Below the pieces are notes generated by a model that searched no databases, was not told the origin of the DNA, and saw nothing but the letters and a program-made list of their open reading frames with translations. A stretch of DNA of 8,575 bases from an uncultured Flavobacteriales bacterium (GTDB lineage Bacteria; Bacteroidota; Bacteroidia; Palsa-965): contig CAMLEF010000195.1 of assembly GCA_946478675.1 (NCBI GenBank), forward strand, positions 1 through 8,575, written 5' to 3'. The position numbers and the translations under genes are program-made. Positions 4 through 8,575 of the stretch are shown here, in pieces; position 1 is the stretch's first letter, and the number at the start of each line of letters is the position of its first letter.

Positions 4-567
4 ATGGAAACGAGAGTACTGTTTGAACGTGGTGCATTTTACCATATCTATAATCATGGTAACGGCGATGAAAACATCTTCAGGCGGCCGGAAAACTATT
101 TTTACTTCCTGAAAAAACAACACCAGTATATGGATGATTTCTGGGAGCTGTTTTGCTGGTGCCTCATGCCAAATCACTTTCATCTCCTGATACGGGTGAA
201 AGATAGTATTGCAGATTGCACAACGGACCAACAAGCCAACAAAATGATCTGCTCAGCCTTCAGCCATTTTACAAATGGTTATGCAAAAGCCATCAACAAG
301 GCCTTCAACAGGCGGGGAAGCTTATTCGTCAAAACCTTTAAAAGAAAACACATTCGCGACGAACGATACCTGAAAGAATTGGTCAGGTATATTCATCTGA
401 ACCCGGTAAACGACCGGTTTGCAGCAGCGCCTGAAAAGTGGCCGCACTCTTCGTATGGTTATATACTCCGAAATCCGTCTGCGTTTCCCGCTACAGAAGT
501 TTATTCACTCTTTAACGACGAGGAAGGTTTCCTGAAAGCGCATGGACAAAATCAGGTTGCTGCGTAG
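4..567 (+). CDS. REP-associated (RAYT/IS200-like) HUH tyrosine transposase
   Basis: A 187-residue protein of the Y1 transposase family, which nicks and joins single-stranded DNA at hairpins through a 5'-phosphotyrosine. The N-terminus has the usual YHIYNHGN motif (residues 13-20). The metal-binding HUH motif is H58-F-H60 within MPNHFHLLI. The probable catalytic tyrosine is Y129 in RYIHLNPV. The length is normal for stand-alone RAYT proteins, and no second ORF (tnpB) or paired IS ends are visible, which favours a RAYT over a complete IS200/IS605 element. The ATG at 4-6 fits the family start, but the upstream region lies outside the window. The stop codon runs directly into a long palindrome (566-627), the kind of structure these enzymes act on. 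All key residues are present, so it is probably functional. Family assignment is confident; the exact subfamily is inferred. Confidence 0.92.
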   Translation: METRVLFERGAFYHIYNHGNGDENIFRRPENYFYFLKKQHQYMDDFWELFCWCLMPNHFHLLIRVKDSIADCTTDQQANKMICSAFSHFTNGYAKAINKAFNRRGSLFVKTFKRKHIRDERYLKELVRYIHLNPVNDRFAAAPEKWPHSSYGYILRNPSAFPATEVYSLFNDEEGFLKAHGQNQVAA

Positions 568-1935: not shown

Positions 1936-2070
1936 ATTCGTGAATTCGGTCATTCGGTTTAAAATACCCGATCACGAATGAACGAATTACCGAATTGTCC
2001 GACTTCCCGAATTACCGAATTACCGAATGAACGAATTACCGAATGCCCGATTTTCCGAATGAACGAATGT
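1936..2070. repeat. Tandem CGAATTA octamer array with inverted left arm
   Basis: From 1974 to 2070 the sequence is almost entirely head-to-tail 8-bp units of the form (A/C)CGAAT(T/G)A, about a dozen copies with some drift and one 9-bp unit. At 1936-1958 there are three units in the opposite orientation, whose reverse complement matches 2022-2044 at 20 of 23 positions, so the region can fold into a long imperfect hairpin. The array is in frame with the WG-repeat gene, so a naive start at 1978 would add 36 artefactual residues. The same octamer appears at 4203-4473 and 4771-4865. Confidence 0.75.
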
Positions 2071-2085
2071 TTAAATTTGAAAGCA

Positions 2086-4203
2086 ATGAAACGCCCGCTG
2101 CTGCTGCTTTCCTTCCTGCTCTTCCTCTCCTGGAATCCGCTCCTCGCCGGCAGGCTGGAAAAAGGGTACGAAGCCTTGCGCGTCTACAACTACTTTCGCG
2201 CACGCGAGCTCTTCCTGGAAACGACAAAGCAGCATCCCGTCGGCGCTGGCTACGGCTTAGCCATCATCTACTCCCGCACCGATAATCCTTTTCACAGCGT
2301 TTCACTCGCGCACGCCTCCATCCTCATCGCCGACTGGCATCTCGCAACGACTTCCGCCAAAGAAAAAGCTCGGCTGAAAAAACTCGGCGTCACCGACAGC
2401 CTCGTCGTGTTGCTCAAACTGCGCATCGACACGCTCGGTTTTCTCGAGACGGAAAAACAAAATTCCGTCACTGCATGGAACGCGTACCTCGATGAATATT
2501 GCGGCTCTTCACTCACCGCTTCAGCAACACAACGGCGCAACAAATTGGCGTTCGAAGAAGCACAGCTCGCCAACACCTGGCAGGCATTCAAAAATTTCAC
2601 GCAATTGTATCCGGACGCGGAACAATTTTCCATCGCGCAGGCAGCCTACGAACGTTTGCTCTACGAAAACAGCACCGCCGACAACACCATTGCCTCCTTC
2701 GAAAAATTTCTCGCGCAGTTTCCGCAAAGCCCGTTCGCCCCGCAAGCCGAAGATGCGCTCTTTCGCTTGTCGACGCCCGGCCACAGCATTGCGGAATACC
2801 ACAGCTTCATCCTGAAATATCCGGATAACCGCAATGTGCCGGAAGCCTGGAACCGCCTCTACGCGCTCTATACCGCCGACGGCAAATCCACGACCATCGC
2901 GCAGTTCTGGATCGACTATCCTTCGTTCCCGTTCAAAGAAACCATCAGCGAAGACCTGCGCCTGTCGATGACCGATTTTTATGCCGTTCGCAAGAATGAA
3001 AAATGGGGATTTGCCGACAGCACCGGCATCGTTCGCATTCCGTTCCTGTACGAATGGGTCGACCAGTTTTCCGAAGGCGTGGCGGCTGCCGGACTGAACG
3101 GCAAAAGCGGCTACATCGGCAAAAACGGCAAAACGCAGATCGCATTCGAATACGACGAAGCCGAAGCGTTCCGCAAAGGAATGGCCGTCGTTCAGCAGAA
3201 AGAAAAAATCGGGCTCGTCGACAAAACCGGTCATCTGATTGTGCCGATTGTATACGACGAGATCAGCGATTTTTCCGAAGCGCGCGCGGTGGTGGTGCGC
3301 GATGGCAAATACGGCTACATCGATCTTTCCGGTAGCGAAGTCGTGCCCTGCCGCTACGAAAAAGCCGGCGACTTCTCCGGTGGTTTTGCGTACGTCGTCG
3401 ACAGCTCGAAATACGGCTACATCGATCGTTCCGGCAAAGAAATTATTCCGCCGCAGTTCGATTGGGTCGAAGCGTTTTCCTACAGCTCCGCGCGCGTGGA
3501 GAAAAACGGAAAATTCGGATTGCTGTCGACCAGCGGAAAACTGTTGCTGCCTTGTGAATATTCGTTTTTCGCACCGTTCAGCGAAGGCCTCGCGCTCGTC
3601 GTGAAAGACGACAAATGCGGTTACGTGCGCCGCGACGGCAGCATCGCCATTCCGCTGCAATACGATTACGACAAAACGAAGCTCGGCGAAAGCCCCTTCA
3701 CCGGCGGCCGCGCCAAAGTCCTGCTCGACGACAAATGCGGCCTCATCGACACGAACGGAAAAGTCGTGGTGCCGCGTGAGTTCGACGACATCCAGGTATT
3801 CTCCAACGGCCTCGCCGCCGTGCGCAAAAAAGACAAGTGGGGCTACATCGATGCGAAAGTCAAGCTCATCATTCCGTACAAATACGATTACGCCTGGAGC
3901 TTCAGCGAAGGAGTCGCGCGCGTAAAAACAGAAGACGGCATCGGCTACATTGACACGAAAGGAAAAGAAGTTCTCCCCCCGCAATTCAACGACGCCGGCG
4001 ATTGCAGCAACGGCTACATGCGCGTCAACGACGGCAACGGCTGGGGCCTGGTCGATGCCAAAGGAAACTGGATCCTCCCCTGCCGCTACGACAAGATCGA
4101 ATTCCTCAACACCCGCGAGTTACGTTTGGAGAAAGACGGAAAGTTCGGCTACTACCATCTCATCCGCTGCGAGTTCATCTGGAAAGAAGAAGGACTTGAG
4201 TAG
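2086..4203 (+). CDS. Exported WG-repeat protein with N-terminal TPR-like region
   Basis: 705 residues from ATG 2086. This start gives a clean signal peptide (MKRPLLLLSFLLFLSWNPLLAG, residues 1-22); the longer in-frame start at 1978 only adds translated octamer repeat. Residues ~23-300 are helical and TPR-like (YNYFRARELFLETTKQHP, FEKFLAQFPQSPFAPQAEDAL). From ~306 onward there are eleven WG repeats of about 33-35 residues, plus a partial twelfth. Each follows the pattern K-(W/Y/F/C)-G-(Y/F/L)-I-D-x-x-G-K-x-I-P-x-x-Y-D-x-x-x-x-F-S-x-G-x-A-x-V. The seventh is lengthened by a short insertion. WG (KWG) repeats are predicted beta-structured modules common in exported Bacteroidota proteins; their role here is unknown, though the TPR half suggests protein binding. 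The gene is alone on its strand, diverges from the 1570-1770 gene and is flanked on both sides by octamer repeats. Confidence 0.92.
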   Translation: MKRPLLLLSFLLFLSWNPLLAGRLEKGYEALRVYNYFRARELFLETTKQHPVGAGYGLAIIYSRTDNPFHSVSLAHASILIADWHLATTSAKEKARLKKLGVTDSLVVLLKLRIDTLGFLETEKQNSVTAWNAYLDEYCGSSLTASATQRRNKLAFEEAQLANTWQAFKNFTQLYPDAEQFSIAQAAYERLLYENSTADNTIASFEKFLAQFPQSPFAPQAEDALFRLSTPGHSIAEYHSFILKYPDNRNVPEAWNRLYALYTADGKSTTIAQFWIDYPSFPFKETISEDLRLSMTDFYAVRKNEKWGFADSTGIVRIPFLYEWVDQFSEGVAAAGLNGKSGYIGKNGKTQIAFEYDEAEAFRKGMAVVQQKEKIGLVDKTGHLIVPIVYDEISDFSEARAVVVRDGKYGYIDLSGSEVVPCRYEKAGDFSGGFAYVVDSSKYGYIDRSGKEIIPPQFDWVEAFSYSSARVEKNGKFGLLSTSGKLLLPCEYSFFAPFSEGLALVVKDDKCGYVRRDGSIAIPLQYDYDKTKLGESPFTGGRAKVLLDDKCGLIDTNGKVVVPREFDDIQVFSNGLAAVRKKDKWGYIDAKVKLIIPYKYDYAWSFSEGVARVKTEDGIGYIDTKGKEVLPPQFNDAGDCSNGYMRVNDGNGWGLVDAKGNWILPCRYDKIEFLNTRELRLEKDGKFGYYHLIRCEFIWKEEGLE

Positions 4204-4292
4204 GGTGCGAATTCCGAATAGGTACGAACATCCGAATACAAAATCCCATCATTACCCATTCGCATATTCGCAAGGATTAGTAATTCGCACCC
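4203..4292. repeat. Octamer-type inverted-repeat element after the WG gene
   Basis: GGGTGCGAATT (4203-4213), starting in the WG gene's stop codon, is the exact reverse complement of AATTCGCACCC (4282-4292). Between them lie further CGAAT/ATTCG units (CCGAATA, TACGAACATCCGAATA, ATTCGCATATTCGC), so the element can fold into a long imperfect hairpin. No T-tract follows, so a terminator role is not supported by sequence alone. Confidence 0.6.
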
Positions 4293-4473
4293 GCTACCCA
4301 TTCGTATATTCGTAACGATTAGTAATTCGCCCCCCACATCCCGTTTACTTCTTCCTCACCATTTTCCTGCGAACTTTTTAAACGCCGATCAGCAGCAGGT
4401 ACGAATATCCGAATACAAAATCCCATCATTACCCATTCGTATATTCGTAACGATTAGTAATTCGCACCCGCTA
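4220..4473. repeat. Duplicated intergenic segment (177-bp offset) with a nested 43-bp tandem copy
   Basis: 4220-4296 and 4397-4473 are nearly identical (AGGTACGAA(C/T)ATCCGAATAC at the left, TAATTCGCACCCGCTA at the right). Bases 4254-4296 are repeated once more in tandem as 4297-4339. The duplicated segment carries with it the 3' end of the neighbouring small gene (4345-4396). The simplest history is a 134-bp tandem duplication followed by a 43-bp expansion of one copy. Confidence 0.75.
4345..4396 (-). pseudogene. Remnant copy of the 3' end of the 4479-4766 gene
   Basis: Read on the minus strand this gives LLIGV-stop-KVRRKMVRKK-stop, which aligns with the C-terminus of the adjacent intact gene (PLIGVAKVIKRMVMKK-stop) with no gaps and a shared stop position. 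An internal TAA replaces the alanine codon. Only about 17 codons remain and no upstream gene body is present, so it cannot be functional. It sits between the two copies of the intergenic repeat at a constant 134-base offset from the intact 3' end, showing that gene end and repeat were duplicated together. Confidence 0.7.
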
Positions 4474-4478
4474 CCCAT

Positions 4479-4766
4479 TTACTTCTTCATCACCATCCTT
4501 TTGATAACCTTAGCAACACCGATCAGCGGCAGCATCCAGATCAGCAGCGTCAGCACGAACGTCAGTTTCACGTAATAAGAACCATCGAATAGATCCGCCT
4601 GTTTTTCGATGAGCCAATCCGTCGGCCAGTGCTCCCCGATCTCCGACCACAACGTTAATCCCAGCGCCACGAGAAAAGCCACGATCGTAAAAGGATCCGC
4701 GTTTTTGTAAGGATTATCCCGCTGCTGCGAAGGAATATTCGTCGGCTGGTTGTATGGGTTTTCCAT
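4479..4766 (-). CDS. Small membrane protein, unknown function
   Basis: 95 residues from ATG 4764-4766. The N-terminal ~24 residues are polar and Asn/Pro/Gln-rich with a repeated NPY motif (NPYNQP and DNPYKN). Two probable membrane helices follow: about 25-41 (PFTIVAFLVALGLTLWS) and 66-88 (VKLTFVLTLLIWMLPLIGVAKVI). The loop between them is acidic and aromatic (EIGEHWPTDWLIEKQADLFDGSYY), and the tail is basic (KRMVMKK). I do not recognise a named family. The gene lies downstream of the M23 peptidase gene on the same strand, but the 105 bp between them is dominated by a 25-bp inverted repeat, so co-transcription is uncertain. A decayed copy of its 3' end is next to it (4345-4396). Confidence 0.75.
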   Translation of the reverse strand: MENPYNQPTNIPSQQRDNPYKNADPFTIVAFLVALGLTLWSEIGEHWPTDWLIEKQADLFDGSYYVKLTFVLTLLIWMLPLIGVAKVIKRMVMKK

Positions 4767-4770
4767 CGGA

Positions 4771-4865
4771 GTTACGAATTACGAATCTTTACGAATATAC
4801 AAATGCGTTAACGGAACACTCCTGTGCCCTGATTCGGATCTTCGTAAAGATTCGTAATTCGTAAC
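4771..4865. repeat. 25-bp perfect inverted repeat made of CGAATTA-type octamers
   Basis: The left arm 4771-4795 (beginning GTTACGAATTACGAATC) and right arm 4841-4865 (ending GATTCGTAATTCGTAAC) are perfect reverse complements, separated by 45 bases. Each arm is about three copies of an (T)ACGAATT/(C)TTT octamer. The element fills nearly all of the 105-bp gap between the M23 gene stop (4872) and the start of the small membrane gene (4766), so in that transcript it would form a stable hairpin ending 4 nt before the ATG. No T-tract follows it. Confidence 0.85.
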
Positions 4866-4871
4866 CCCCGC

Positions 4872-6164
4872 TTATTTCACGCGGACTTTCTGACCGATGC
4901 GGAGCGTGCTGGTCGACTTGATGCCGTTCAGCTTGCAGATCTTATCGACGGTGGTGCCGTATTTCACAGCAAGCGCCGAAAGCGTTTCTCCCTTTTTGAT
5001 CGTGTGGTAAACCGCGGTTCCAGCAGGCTTCGTAGTCGTTGTCTGCGTGGTGGGTTTTCCGGGAGCGGTTTTGGCAGTAGTAGTCGTTGCCGGCTTCTTG
5101 GCAGGCGGAGGATTTTTCGCAGATGGAGCAGATTTCGCAGGAGCGGCATTCGCTTCTGTCTGCGAAGGAGGAGCTTGAGCAGGAACACTGGCTGTATTGG
5201 CAGCACTGGTTCCGGGTGTTGACGGTTCAGGCACCTGCGCCATGATGCGACGGGCTTCCGGCGTTGCGTAATGCGCGCCACCCGGCGTATAGTACGTATA
5301 CCAGGTCTTCTTTTTCTTCTTCGAGTAATGACGGACTTTATACGATTCCGCGAGATACTTGAAATTCGATTTCGTCAGGTAGATCGTGTCGGCGCGTACG
5401 CACTGGTGCTTGAAGTCAATCACGTAATTCGGATCGATCGGCTGGCCGCGGAAACGCACTTCGAAATGCAGGTGGCTGCCGAACGAGTGGCCGGTGTTGC
5501 CGCCGAGACCGAGGATCGTTCCTGCGTTCACGTCTTCGTTCGGATGAACGAGCAGCTTCGACAGGTGCGCATAATAGGTTTCGAGCCCGTTGCTGTGACG
5601 AACCACGACAACGTAACCGTACGTTTTGCTGCGCTGCGCGATACGGACTTTGCCATCGAAAGCGCAACGAACGGAATCGCCGGTTTCGAGATTGATGTCT
5701 TCGCCGAAATGATAACGGTATTTACGGAAGCCGAAACCGGAAGTCGTCGGGCCGTTGAAGGGATGTACGTATTTCGAATGCGCCGGATCATTGAGCACGA
5801 TCATCATCGTGTCGTCGAAAGTAAGCGCGTCGAATTTTTCGGAATGAACGATCGTGGTGTCGAACTCGTCGTATAATTCGCTGGCGGGAATTTCTTCTTC
5901 ATTCACCGTTTCCAGCGGCGCGCGCACGAGCGGAGGATTGCCCGTCGGCGGTTCGGTATGATCTTCGGTCGTATCTGTAATTATAGTTACGGGGCCGGAA
6001 GTATCGATCGGAAGTTTATCAGTGAGAGGCGCAGGCTCGGTCGTATCTGAAACGGCTTTTAAACCATCAGATGAGACCGGCGAAGCACCGGCAGTAGCAG
6101 CAATGCTACCCCAGAAGCCTGCAACGGCAACGAACAGAACGGCTATGTACCTGAGTTTCTTCAA
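4872..6164 (-). CDS. M23 (LytM) family peptidase with C-terminal LysM domain
   Basis: 430 residues; probable periplasmic murein endopeptidase or amidase activator. Residues 1-27 form a signal peptide (MKKLRYIAVLFVAVAGFWGS...). A Pro/Thr/Asp-rich linker runs to ~130. The M23 domain spans ~132-250. Its zinc ligands and catalytic residues are all visible: H152 and D156 in HFGED, H200 in YYAHLSK, and H231/H233 in HLHFEVR. This suggests an active peptidase rather than a degenerate EnvC/NlpD type. A basic stretch (SKKKKKTW, 281-288) and a long Ala/Pro/Thr/Lys linker (~310-383) lead to a single LysM domain at 385-429 (YHTIKKGETLSALAVKYG ... LRIGQKVRVK), which binds peptidoglycan glycan chains. LysM at the C-terminus of an M23 enzyme is a common Bacteroidota arrangement. 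The start is fixed by the signal peptide. A promoter lies at 6209-6239. Confidence 0.94.
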   Translation of the reverse strand: MKKLRYIAVLFVAVAGFWGSIAATAGASPVSSDGLKAVSDTTEPAPLTDKLPIDTSGPVTIITDTTEDHTEPPTGNPPLVRAPLETVNEEEIPASELYDEFDTTIVHSEKFDALTFDDTMMIVLNDPAHSKYVHPFNGPTTSGFGFRKYRYHFGEDINLETGDSVRCAFDGKVRIAQRSKTYGYVVVVRHSNGLETYYAHLSKLLVHPNEDVNAGTILGLGGNTGHSFGSHLHFEVRFRGQPIDPNYVIDFKHQCVRADTIYLTKSNFKYLAESYKVRHYSKKKKKTWYTYYTPGGAHYATPEARRIMAQVPEPSTPGTSAANTASVPAQAPPSQTEANAAPAKSAPSAKNPPPAKKPATTTTAKTAPGKPTTQTTTTKPAGTAVYHTIKKGETLSALAVKYGTTVDKICKLNGIKSTSTLRIGQKVRVK

Positions 6165-6368: not shown

Positions 6369-6409
6369 AAAAAACCGCGCAGCCACAGCCTCTGCTGCAA
6401 CTGCGCGGT
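6369..6409 (-). terminator. Intrinsic terminator of the endonuclease gene
   Basis: On the minus strand, the stem ACCGCGCAG / CTGCGCGGT (6401-6409 and 6374-6382) is perfect over 9 bp, with an inner CAGC/GCTG stem, and is followed directly by a run of six T (6369-6374 on the complementary strand). It begins 20 bases after the stop codon at 6430. The remaining part of this intergenic region (6268-6368) shows nothing further. Confidence 0.85.
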
Positions 6410-6429
6410 CATTACGCAAAGAAAGATTT

Positions 6430-8157
6430 TTACTGGAGCACCAGCTTTTCAGTGACGACACCTGCGCCCTGCACCTGCAGCGTATACACGCCTTTCGCGA
6501 TATTTTGCAGATCGAGTGAATACGCATTGGCGCCAGCGGCAGCAGCATTCTGCTGCTCATATACGACACGTCCCGAAACATCGATGAGGCGGATCGTGAT
6601 CGATTCGTTTTGCTTCACCTGGTAGTACAGCGTGAACACACCGTCGGTCGGGTTCGGCCAGAGACCGAGCTGCACCGTATTCGGATTCTGTTCCGCGATG
6701 CCGATCGTCGTCGTGTTGCACGGGAGCACCGGGCCGTTAATCTTCGTCATGTTGTTGAAGTCGATGTAGCAAACGTAGTTCACGCTATCGATAAACGGGT
6801 TGCGGTTGCCCTGCAGCGAATCGAGGAAGTCGTTCTTCGCGATCTCGCGCGCATCCGGCGGATCCATGTAGTGCCATGCTTTGAGTAAGTTCTGATCTTC
6901 TCCGTAAGTAATGCTCGTGCTGATCGGGTTCGGCAGTCCCCAGTTCTGTGCGGAAGTATTGTAGCACATCGCCATGTAGAACATCGCGCGCGCCGCATCA
7001 CCTTTCTGCTCGTCACGCGGCTCAAACACGGTGTGACCGTTCGCATCGAGACCGTATTTGCAGCCCATGAACGTATACGAAGGCGTTACCACTTCGCCGA
7101 GCGGGTAGTTGCTGCGCACCGCGTTCGCGTCGTTCTGGTTGACCGGGAACAGGTTGAAATAATCGCTGTATTCCGGGCCGGTCGTGCTCGGGTACGTCGG
7201 CATCCAGCTGTGGCAGTAAGTGTGCTCGCGGCTGTACGTTCCCCACTGGAACGGTTCGGTGTACACGTAATTCTCGCCGGAATAAACACAGGTGATCGCT
7301 TTGTCGCCACCCGTCGTATCGCGCGCCCAGAAGAGCGACACCATGCGCGGTCCGTAGTTGCTGTAGTAATTATCCGTGTGCGGGTTCGTCAGCGTCGTCA
7401 GATCGTCCACGAACGTCGGTGCCGCGGTGTTGATCGTATTGTAATAGTTCGCCGGCTGCATCGAACCGGAAGACATCACGCTGCCGGACAACGGTGCGGA
7501 AGTGTAATAGTTCGTATACGGAGCCGGACCGTTGAATGCGAATACCGCGAAGAAATAATCCTGGTTCGCGCCGATGTAATTCGCCCAAACCGAAAGACCG
7601 GTTCCGACGTACGCCACTTTCGAGCTGCCCACCTGGTCGCCTACGGTGTAAGAAGAACCATCGGCAGGAACATCCGTTACCGCTGCATCGTCGCGACGAA
7701 GAACGATATAACCGTCCGGCGTCGTGCTCGCTGCATTCCAGTTCAGTTTAATGCGATACGATTTTACACTGGAGAACGAAAGGTTCGTCGGGGCAGAAGT
7801 CGGTTCGGTTGCGTAGCCGCCGCCTGCGCCGTAAAGATTGATCACATAAGAGCTTTCGTCGGCGTCATCGTTGGCGATGGTGAGCGTGGCGACGCGTGTG
7901 CCGGCTGCCGACGGCGTGAAGTTAACAACGAGGTTGCCCGTGCTTTGTGCAGCGACCGTCGCCGGGAAGGAAGCGACGGAAAAATCAGCAGCGTTTGCGC
8001 CTGAAATGGTCGCGTTGGAAATGTTCAGCGTATTCGACGTGCCGGTATTTTCAACCGTGAACGTGATCGGCGTCGTCGCGCTTACCGGTGAAGAGAACCA
8101 GGCAGAGCCGCCGGTGAGCACCGTGGTCGTGTTGAGCTTCACGTTGATCTCCTGCTG
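6430..8157 (-). CDS. Secreted endonuclease I (NucM-like) with anchor-D, Fn3 and T9SS sorting domains; 5' end missing
   Basis: An extracellular DNA/RNA-degrading enzyme predicted to be exported by type IX secretion. Numbering from the GTG at 8140-8142 (570 residues): ~1-107 is a choice-of-anchor-D beta domain (TFTVENTGTSNTLNIS ... LVVNFTPSAAGTRVATLTI). Residues ~115-215 are a fibronectin III domain (APTNLSFSSVKSYRIKLNW). Residues ~235-460 are endonuclease I, with SREHTYCHSWMP (304-315; H307 is the likely general base), DYFNLFPVNQ, FEPRDEQKGDAARAMFYM (373-390) and QGNRNPFID (444-452). Residues ~490-570 are the T9SS sorting domain (LWPNPTDGVFTLYY ... IAKGVYTLQV). The GTG is unlikely to be the true start: the anchor-D domain begins upstream at QQEINVK (to ~8157), and no signal peptide is present. 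The frame stays open to 8481, but that extension is antisense to RNase HI and has foreign composition. The gene is truncated at the junction near 8160. Confidence 0.9.
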   Translation of the reverse strand, partial: QQEINVKLNTTTVLTGGSAWFSSPVSATTPITFTVENTGTSNTLNISNATISGANAADFSVASFPATVAAQSTGNLVVNFTPSAAGTRVATLTIANDDADESSYVINLYGAGGGYATEPTSAPTNLSFSSVKSYRIKLNWNAASTTPDGYIVLRRDDAAVTDVPADGSSYTVGDQVGSSKVAYVGTGLSVWANYIGANQDYFFAVFAFNGPAPYTNYYTSAPLSGSVMSSGSMQPANYYNTINTAAPTFVDDLTTLTNPHTDNYYSNYGPRMVSLFWARDTTGGDKAITCVYSGENYVYTEPFQWGTYSREHTYCHSWMPTYPSTTGPEYSDYFNLFPVNQNDANAVRSNYPLGEVVTPSYTFMGCKYGLDANGHTVFEPRDEQKGDAARAMFYMAMCYNTSAQNWGLPNPISTSITYGEDQNLLKAWHYMDPPDAREIAKNDFLDSLQGNRNPFIDSVNYVCYIDFNNMTKINGPVLPCNTTTIGIAEQNPNTVQLGLWPNPTDGVFTLYYQVKQNESITIRLIDVSGRVVYEQQNAAAAGANAYSLDLQNIAKGVYTLQVQGAGVVTEKLVLQ

Positions 8158-8175
8158 CGGGCCTGCGGGCGCTGA
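8150..8175. other. Junction between Bacteroidota DNA and foreign or chimeric DNA
   Basis: Leftward, the minus strand codes for the endonuclease, whose recognisable homology ends at about 8157 without start or signal peptide. Rightward, the plus strand codes for RNase HI, whose recognisable homology begins at about 8154-8163 in mid-domain. Two unrelated genes on opposite strands cut at the same point, with a rise in GC across it, indicate a join. No insertion-sequence ends, tRNA gene or att-like repeat is visible at it. Confidence 0.8.
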
Positions 8176-8465
8176 AGACGCAATGCAACGTGGCCTTGTA
8201 CTCCGACTCCGCCTATCTGGTGAGCCAGATGATCGGACGGCTCCCGGAGCGGTGGGCGAAGAACGGATGGAAGAACTGCAACAAGCAGCCGGTTCAGAAT
8301 CGCGATCTATGGGAGAAGCTGGTCGCCGCGTGCGCCCGCCATCAGGTTCGGTTCTTGCGCCTGGCCGGCCACGCCGGCGACCTCGAGAACGAACGGTGCG
8401 ACCAGCTCGCCGCTGACGCCGCGAAGCAACGCGATCTAGCCGTTGATTGGGAGTACGGGCAGTAG
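8154..8465 (+). CDS. rnhA: Ribonuclease HI, C-terminal part (5'-truncated at the junction)
   Basis: RNase HI cleaves the RNA strand of RNA-DNA hybrids. The frame reads AAGLRALKTQCNVALYSDSAYLV and continues through RWAKNGWKN, KQPVQNRDLWEKL, FLRLAGHAGDLENERCDQLA and a short tail ending WEYGQ. This matches the second two thirds of bacterial RNase HI. The third catalytic Asp (in LYSDSAYL), the flexible-loop His (GHAG) and the last catalytic Asp (ERCDQLA) are present. The N-terminal strands with the first catalytic Asp and the Glu are missing, and an in-frame TGA lies upstream at 8145-8147. A GTG at 8190 could be called as a start, but it falls inside the conserved LYSDS strand region, so the protein would not be functional. 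GC and style differ from the rest of the window. Confidence 0.88.
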   Translation, partial: AAGLRALKTQCNVALYSDSAYLVSQMIGRLPERWAKNGWKNCNKQPVQNRDLWEKLVAACARHQVRFLRLAGHAGDLENERCDQLAADAAKQRDLAVDWEYGQ

Positions 8466-8478
8466 AGTGGTTCTTCGT

Positions 8479-8575
8479 CTACGGTGATCCACTCGGGGGG
8501 ACGACATTGGACTGCTGCAGCAGAGCGCTCAGCGCCGCCTGGAGTCGCTTGGCGTCTTCGGTTAGGAGGTAAGAG
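8479..8575 (-). CDS. Possible 3' end of a gene running off the right edge, unrecognised
   Basis: On the minus strand an open frame enters from the edge and ends in TAG (8479-8481), reading LLTEDAKRLQAALSALLQ then QSNVVPPSGSP. The helical, amphipathic character suggests a genuine C-terminus convergent with RNase HI, 13 bases from its stop. Too little is present to name a family. An alternative is that the stretch is intergenic, because AGGAGGT at 8564-8570 on the plus strand looks like a Shine-Dalgarno sequence for a gene starting beyond 8575. Confidence 0.35.
   Translation of the reverse strand, partial: SYLLTEDAKRLQAALSALLQQSNVVPPSGSP

Follow-up and report, generated by a model that had tools for sequence, protein, structure and literature searches.

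Near position 8160 of an 8,575-nt stretch of DNA from an uncultured Flavobacteriales bacterium (GenBank assembly GCA_946478675.1, contig CAMLEF010000195.1; hereafter the window), a gene for a secreted endonuclease on the minus strand and a gene for RNase HI on the plus strand both break off (Table 1). Does this joint record an event in the history of a bacterial genome, or was it made during sequencing or assembly? The original prediction, made from the sequence alone, preferred a chimeric joint and named illegitimate insertion of foreign DNA as the alternative. We find that the join is very probably a chimera of two unrelated genomes, that is, a sequencing or assembly artefact, and set out below the evidence on each side of the joint, on the joint itself and on three competing explanations.

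Table 1: Features of the window, with coordinates in window positions
Feature	Position	Strand	Support or remarks
RAYT-like (transposase-like) ORF	4-567		187 aa
Protein with weak T9SS tail	634-1422
WG-repeat protein	1978-4203 (as listed)
M23 peptidase with LysM	4872..6164	minus	PF01551 (7.7e-28), PF01476 (3.5e-15)
T9SS-secreted endonuclease I gene, 5′-truncated	6430..8172	minus	PF04231, Por_Secre_tail, choice_anch_D, P0066 identity
Crossover zone, ~13-16 bp, GCGGGCCTGCGGGCGC	8157..8172	.	Reads APAGP on minus (endonuclease), AGLRA on plus (RNase HI)
RNase HI gene, 5′-truncated, C-terminal two thirds, own stop	8157..8465	plus	PF00075, PRK00203, P0001
Possible C-terminal end of a further gene (putative)	8482..8574	minus	Open frame ending in TAG

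First, the gene on the left has an uncut counterpart. Its frame, which ends in a stop codon at 6430, carries a choice-of-anchor D domain, an fn3-like stretch, Endonuclease_1 and a T9SS sorting tail, in that order (profile matches: choice_anch_D, 1.8e-14; Pfam PF04231, E = 2.6e-32; Pfam Por_Secre_tail, 2.4e-12), which is the domain order of the Bacteroidota endonuclease I proteins with a T9SS tail (P0066–P0185). In a protein search and a residue-by-residue comparison, the frame from 8172 down to 6433 equals residues 157–736 of P0066, a database protein of 736 aa, at 580 of 580 residues (100% identity across the entire query). P0066 has 156 more N-terminal residues, and in the window these are replaced by unrelated sequence: directly upstream of 8172 the window reads I-A-S-S before APAGPQQEINV where P0066 reads N-L-A-A, and seven chosen relatives (P0067–P0071, P0074 and P0076) go on upstream as P0066 does. 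The N-terminal loss predicted for the endonuclease is thus confirmed at 156 residues of P0066 upstream of 8172, and since the window departs from P0066 upstream of residue 157, the loss takes with it the N-terminus, which by eye we take to be a signal peptide. Upstream of 8172 the minus frame is the antisense of RNase HI and holds no N-terminal domain; its first possible start is GTG 8142, upstream of which it stays open and has no start codon back to the frame stop at 8482. Because P0066 is identical at 580 of 580 residues and has 156 further N-terminal ones, an uncut version of the endonuclease gene evidently exists in other assemblies, the identity being one of protein sequence. The 90% cluster of P0066 comprises 2 sequences, found on 5 contigs of up to 24,570 bases. 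P0066 may derive from another strain of the same species.

The relatives of this protein are, for the most part, about as long. At least 700 aa were counted in 116 of the 120 listed endonuclease matches (best 120 of 1783), and the other four of this set measure 551–662 aa, with longest contigs of at most 2,591 bases; wherever a match among these 120 bears a taxon name, it is Bacteroidota/Bacteroidia or soil metagenome. A phylum-wide search with P0066 gave matches in 273 of 395 genomes at E <= 0.001, although most of those listed were partial, the best reaching 46% over residues 160–725. Order and family searches were centred, after this survey, on better genomes: in the order of G043, P0066 has matches at E <= 1e-100 in 91 of 249 genomes, and in the family of G929 it has them at E <= 1e-230 in 21 of 150, all 21 frames measuring 720–746 aa and one having an internal stop. 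When 23 endonuclease loci were chosen for comparison (L121–L137 and L231–L236), 22 aligned from P0066 residue 1–23 and the remaining one starts at base 6 of its own contig. A second Bacteroidota genome with endonuclease and RNase HI side by side, which the original prediction had named as evidence against a chimera, was not encountered: none of 30 endonuclease loci fetched from whole genomes had an RNase HI relative (flanks up to 1.5 kb, E <= 1e-4). A viral scan with P0066 likewise gave no relative.

The position of the cut within the family deserves a comment. Among 95 match rows from the order of G043, 35 align from P0066 residue 2–22; in 52 more distant rows the alignment does not begin until residue 147–160, in frames of 704–799 aa. 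On these alignments, a domain boundary of the family lies near the cut point, and distant members evidently have another N-terminal part. Replacement of the N-terminal part at this boundary could happen in nature; the coincidence of cut and boundary is nevertheless minor and leaves the odds for a chimera unchanged.

Up to ~8170 the window carries genes of Bacteroidota type. P0186 is 99% identical to the M23 peptidase of the window over 82% of its length. For 22 of the first 56 endonuclease rows, the longest contig has the same length as that of one of the first 70 M23 rows, and two such endonuclease/M23 pairs have locus numbers ten apart (BH09BAC5_10980/10970 and Fur0041_11030/11020); given these matching contigs and near locus numbers, the endonuclease–M23 gene order is native to Bacteroidia. 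Further observations concern this part of the window. The RAYT-like ORF scores 68.1 bits against NCBIfam NF047646 (REP-associated tyrosine transposases; cut-off 80), with Pfam Y1_Tnp below its cut-off; after it comes a perfect inverted repeat of 29 bp around a loop of 4 bases (566–594/599–627). Positions 1967–2079 hold a run of repeats (CGAATTAC/CGAATGAA type), mostly spaced by 8 bases, immediately before the WG-repeat protein, whose true start, judged by eye, is likely ~2086, the listed start falling within the repeats. The stretches 4220–4496 and 4768–4868, between the WG-repeat gene and the M23 peptidase, contain two 100-base direct copies, 88% identical and rich in TTCGTAA/TTACGAA words, together with inverted copies and, at 4768–4868, a hairpin with 37-base arms.

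Second, the gene on the right is also truncated, and its affinities lie elsewhere. Like bacterial RNase HI (RnhA), it has the C-terminal part of the protein, matching PF00075 at profile positions 55–140 of 141 (E = 4.1e-20) with the SDS motif included; it differs in lacking the N-terminal third, and its match to PRK00203 (positions 56–144 of 151) scores 101 bits, where the NCBIfam equivalog cut-off is 160. Homology begins at residue 59 of P0001, which leaves ~58 N-terminal residues absent and bears out the predicted loss of the first strands, and the frame has a stop at 8145–8147, three or four codons before the homology starts. Absent from the window protein are the TDG and RMEL blocks, to which we ascribe a catalytic role, as the presumed carriers of the first acidic residues in the N-terminal catalytic strands.

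Separate searches of the two sides, which had been proposed along with the original prediction, returned different taxa: Bacteroidota/Bacteroidia names on the left and, on the right, one Gemmatimonadales and one Acidobacteria record. The three best RNase HI matches are P0001 (80%), P0002 (77%, the Gemmatimonadales record) and P0003 (72%), so that the best match to the right-hand parent stands at 80%, and the protein search found none at 100%. A single match with a Bacteroidota name occurs among those listed (Pedobacter, P0065), at 40%. The best RNase HI on a genome contig is L001, from an Acidobacteria gp1 MAG, at 70% to P0001 and 62% to the window; in a phylum sample of 396 genomes for L001's genome the next best RNase HI reached 54%, and in the Bacteroidota phylum sample of G001 (a record titled Bacteroidia; 296 genomes) the best reached 53% (L237). 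In a tree of 51 rows, made up of the window together with 28 loci selected from 102 and 22 proteins selected from 65, the window falls in a 12-row clade (100/98) with P0001–P0010 and L001. The Bacteroidota rows L057 and P0065 and the Bacteroidota-sample rows L237 and L238 all lie outside this clade, L237 grouping with Chlorobi rows. By its sequence affinities, the RNase HI piece is not Bacteroidota-like. Most RNase HI matches of the window's clade carry no taxon name, and we would not name the phylum of the right-hand parent with confidence.

L001 itself lies on a contig of only 3,095 bases, so its own binning may be wrong. There, the RNase HI gene (294–785) adjoins a converging DUF2971 gene (893–1594; PF11185, 38.4 bits), a neighbour that differs from the converging frame at the right end of the window. 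The latter frame (8482..8574) had no Pfam or NCBIfam match, and its best E value among 80 RNase HI loci was 1.2.

Composition also changes at the joint, to a degree that depends on the measure. The predicted rise in GC to the right is real, with 0.627 in 8176–8575, against 78 windows taken from the left side that average 0.523 and reach at most 0.590. The tetranucleotide comparison that had been suggested gave a low correlation between right and left (r = 0.407); as 7 of the 78 left windows are as low or lower, this contrast is weak and not decisive. The Shine–Dalgarno-like sequence noted earlier is present as AGGAGG at 8564–8569, six bases from the window end and inside the open minus-strand frame, but no start codon is visible, so it says little and cannot be judged as a ribosome-binding site. 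These data bear on an internal rearrangement, in which a deletion or inversion would have fused two genes of one genome. Both sides are ordinary bacterial genes and the tetranucleotide contrast alone is weak, as such a fusion would have it, but neither the clade nor the GC of the RNase HI piece resembles the Bacteroidota examined, and the endonuclease has an uncut copy, which makes an internal rearrangement barely credible.

Third, the joint has a structure of its own. RNase HI homology extends left to 8157 in P0001, P0004, P0005 and P0006, to 8160 in P0003, P0007 and P0009 and to 8163 in P0002, and blastn similarity to the DNA of L001 starts at window position 8160; endonuclease homology extends right to 8172. 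The idea of two opposite-strand genes cut at the same point therefore stands insofar as both truncations are real and fall in the same place, but there is no gap between the two homologies, which overlap by ~13–16 bp (8157–8172). At the level of protein matches, 8157/8160–8172 fits both proteins on opposite strands, over about five residues each; the window contains the junction word a single time. With a single cut inside 8157–8172, about four more residues would have to match by chance, which is unlikely. In view of this and of the overlap, the simplest reading is that a GC-rich word of 13–16 bp (19 at most) would have been common to both parents, which were joined there. This word is read from protein matches and not from parental DNA: against the 23 endonuclease relatives, which at 48–58% identity are too distant to reveal the parental DNA of the word, 3–11 of its 16 bases match, the three best (11/16) encoding the same APAGP.

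A joint made in vivo would look the same, and an overlap of 13–16 bp would also fit microhomology-mediated joining. Through microhomology-mediated end joining, foreign DNA with the RNase HI piece may have entered the endonuclease gene in one strain and disrupted it, and the cut at a domain boundary of the endonuclease family would suit such an event. Against this, the foreign piece would start inside a gene and bring no intact RNase HI, a second joint would be required beyond the window, there is an uncut gene with the same protein sequence, tRNA, Rfam and element features are absent, and the arrangement was seen in none of the 30 relatives examined. We consider a real insertion very unlikely on this balance. 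Its most specific form, in which DNA of Gemmatimonadota/Acidobacteriota type would recently have integrated illegitimately, across phyla, into the gene for a secreted endonuclease of Bacteroidota, through ~15 bp of microhomology at the domain boundary, in one strain and without a mobile element, has only a slim chance of being correct.

Could the joint instead mark where a mobile element or prophage ends, with the rest of it extending rightwards past the window? As predicted, no recombinase or tRNA accompanies the join: the window has no Rfam family at gathering scores and no tRNA, and among the 9 window frames scanned there is no recombinase save the transposase-like frame, ~7.6 kb from the join. 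The window repeat scan lists no repeats of at least 16 bp at the join; the far end of any insert would fall outside the window. No match came from a phage DNA search with 6400–8575, from a plasmid DNA search for 8100–8575 or, at high identity, for the whole window, and a viral scan with a 24-base pattern taken from the junction and the sequence to its right gave no relative. RNase HI relatives do occur on viral contigs, where 98 were found, and the nearest genome-contig relative adjoins a DUF2971 gene, both of which would be in keeping with an element. The best 80 of these 98 viral loci are, however, 33–51% identical to P0001, versus 70–83% for P0002–P0007, P0009 and P0010 of the window's clade. 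Further, an element would not be expected to end within one of its own genes, yet the RNase HI gene is cut. With element features lacking and the RNase HI gene itself cut, we reject an element end, to which we would assign a remote likelihood.

A chimeric join remains the simplest explanation, as originally proposed, and is supported by the uncut P0066 together with the placement of the RNase HI apart from the Bacteroidota rows of the tree. Most likely, positions 1 to ~8170 are genuine chromosome of an uncultured Bacteroidota bacterium, and the last ~419 bp (from 8157–8172 to 8575) would be DNA of another bacterium, presumably from the same sample, with an RNase HI of the clade that includes one MAG each of Gemmatimonadales and Acidobacteria. 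An artificial step, either in the assembler or in library preparation (template switching or ligation), would have joined the two DNAs at the GC-rich word of ~13–16 bp apparently common to both parents. We infer both this in vitro or in silico origin and the route. The foreign tail of ~419 bp is about one short-read fragment in size and reaches the window end, which suggests that the Bacteroidota contig was lengthened there by one chimeric fragment or by a wrong path through the assembly graph.

As the relevant part of one review describes (PMC7299287), shared k-mers often connect the assembly graphs of related species, sequencing errors can have the same effect, and chimeric contigs can result. 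The join resembles such inter-genome chimeric contigs of short-read metagenome assemblies in that two unrelated genomes meet at a short, putatively shared sequence, both genes are cut and the foreign piece stands at the sequence end. It differs in that this part of the review describes k-mers and sequencing errors in the graph, whereas the word deduced here, at 13–19 bp, does not quite reach the length that a plain k = 21 graph collision would need; since it falls slightly under that overlap, template switching in the library would be as likely as graph-based joining. At the level of titles and abstract openings, our literature search found nothing specific on the mechanism of such joins.

For annotation, the endonuclease stub and the RNase HI stub should not be described as a fusion, a pseudogene pair or a transfer event, and the record would be better cut at ~8157. 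Most likely, the join shows nothing biologically new and is of no biological interest unless reads show it to be real. A real join would make a clean case of illegitimate recombination between phyla.
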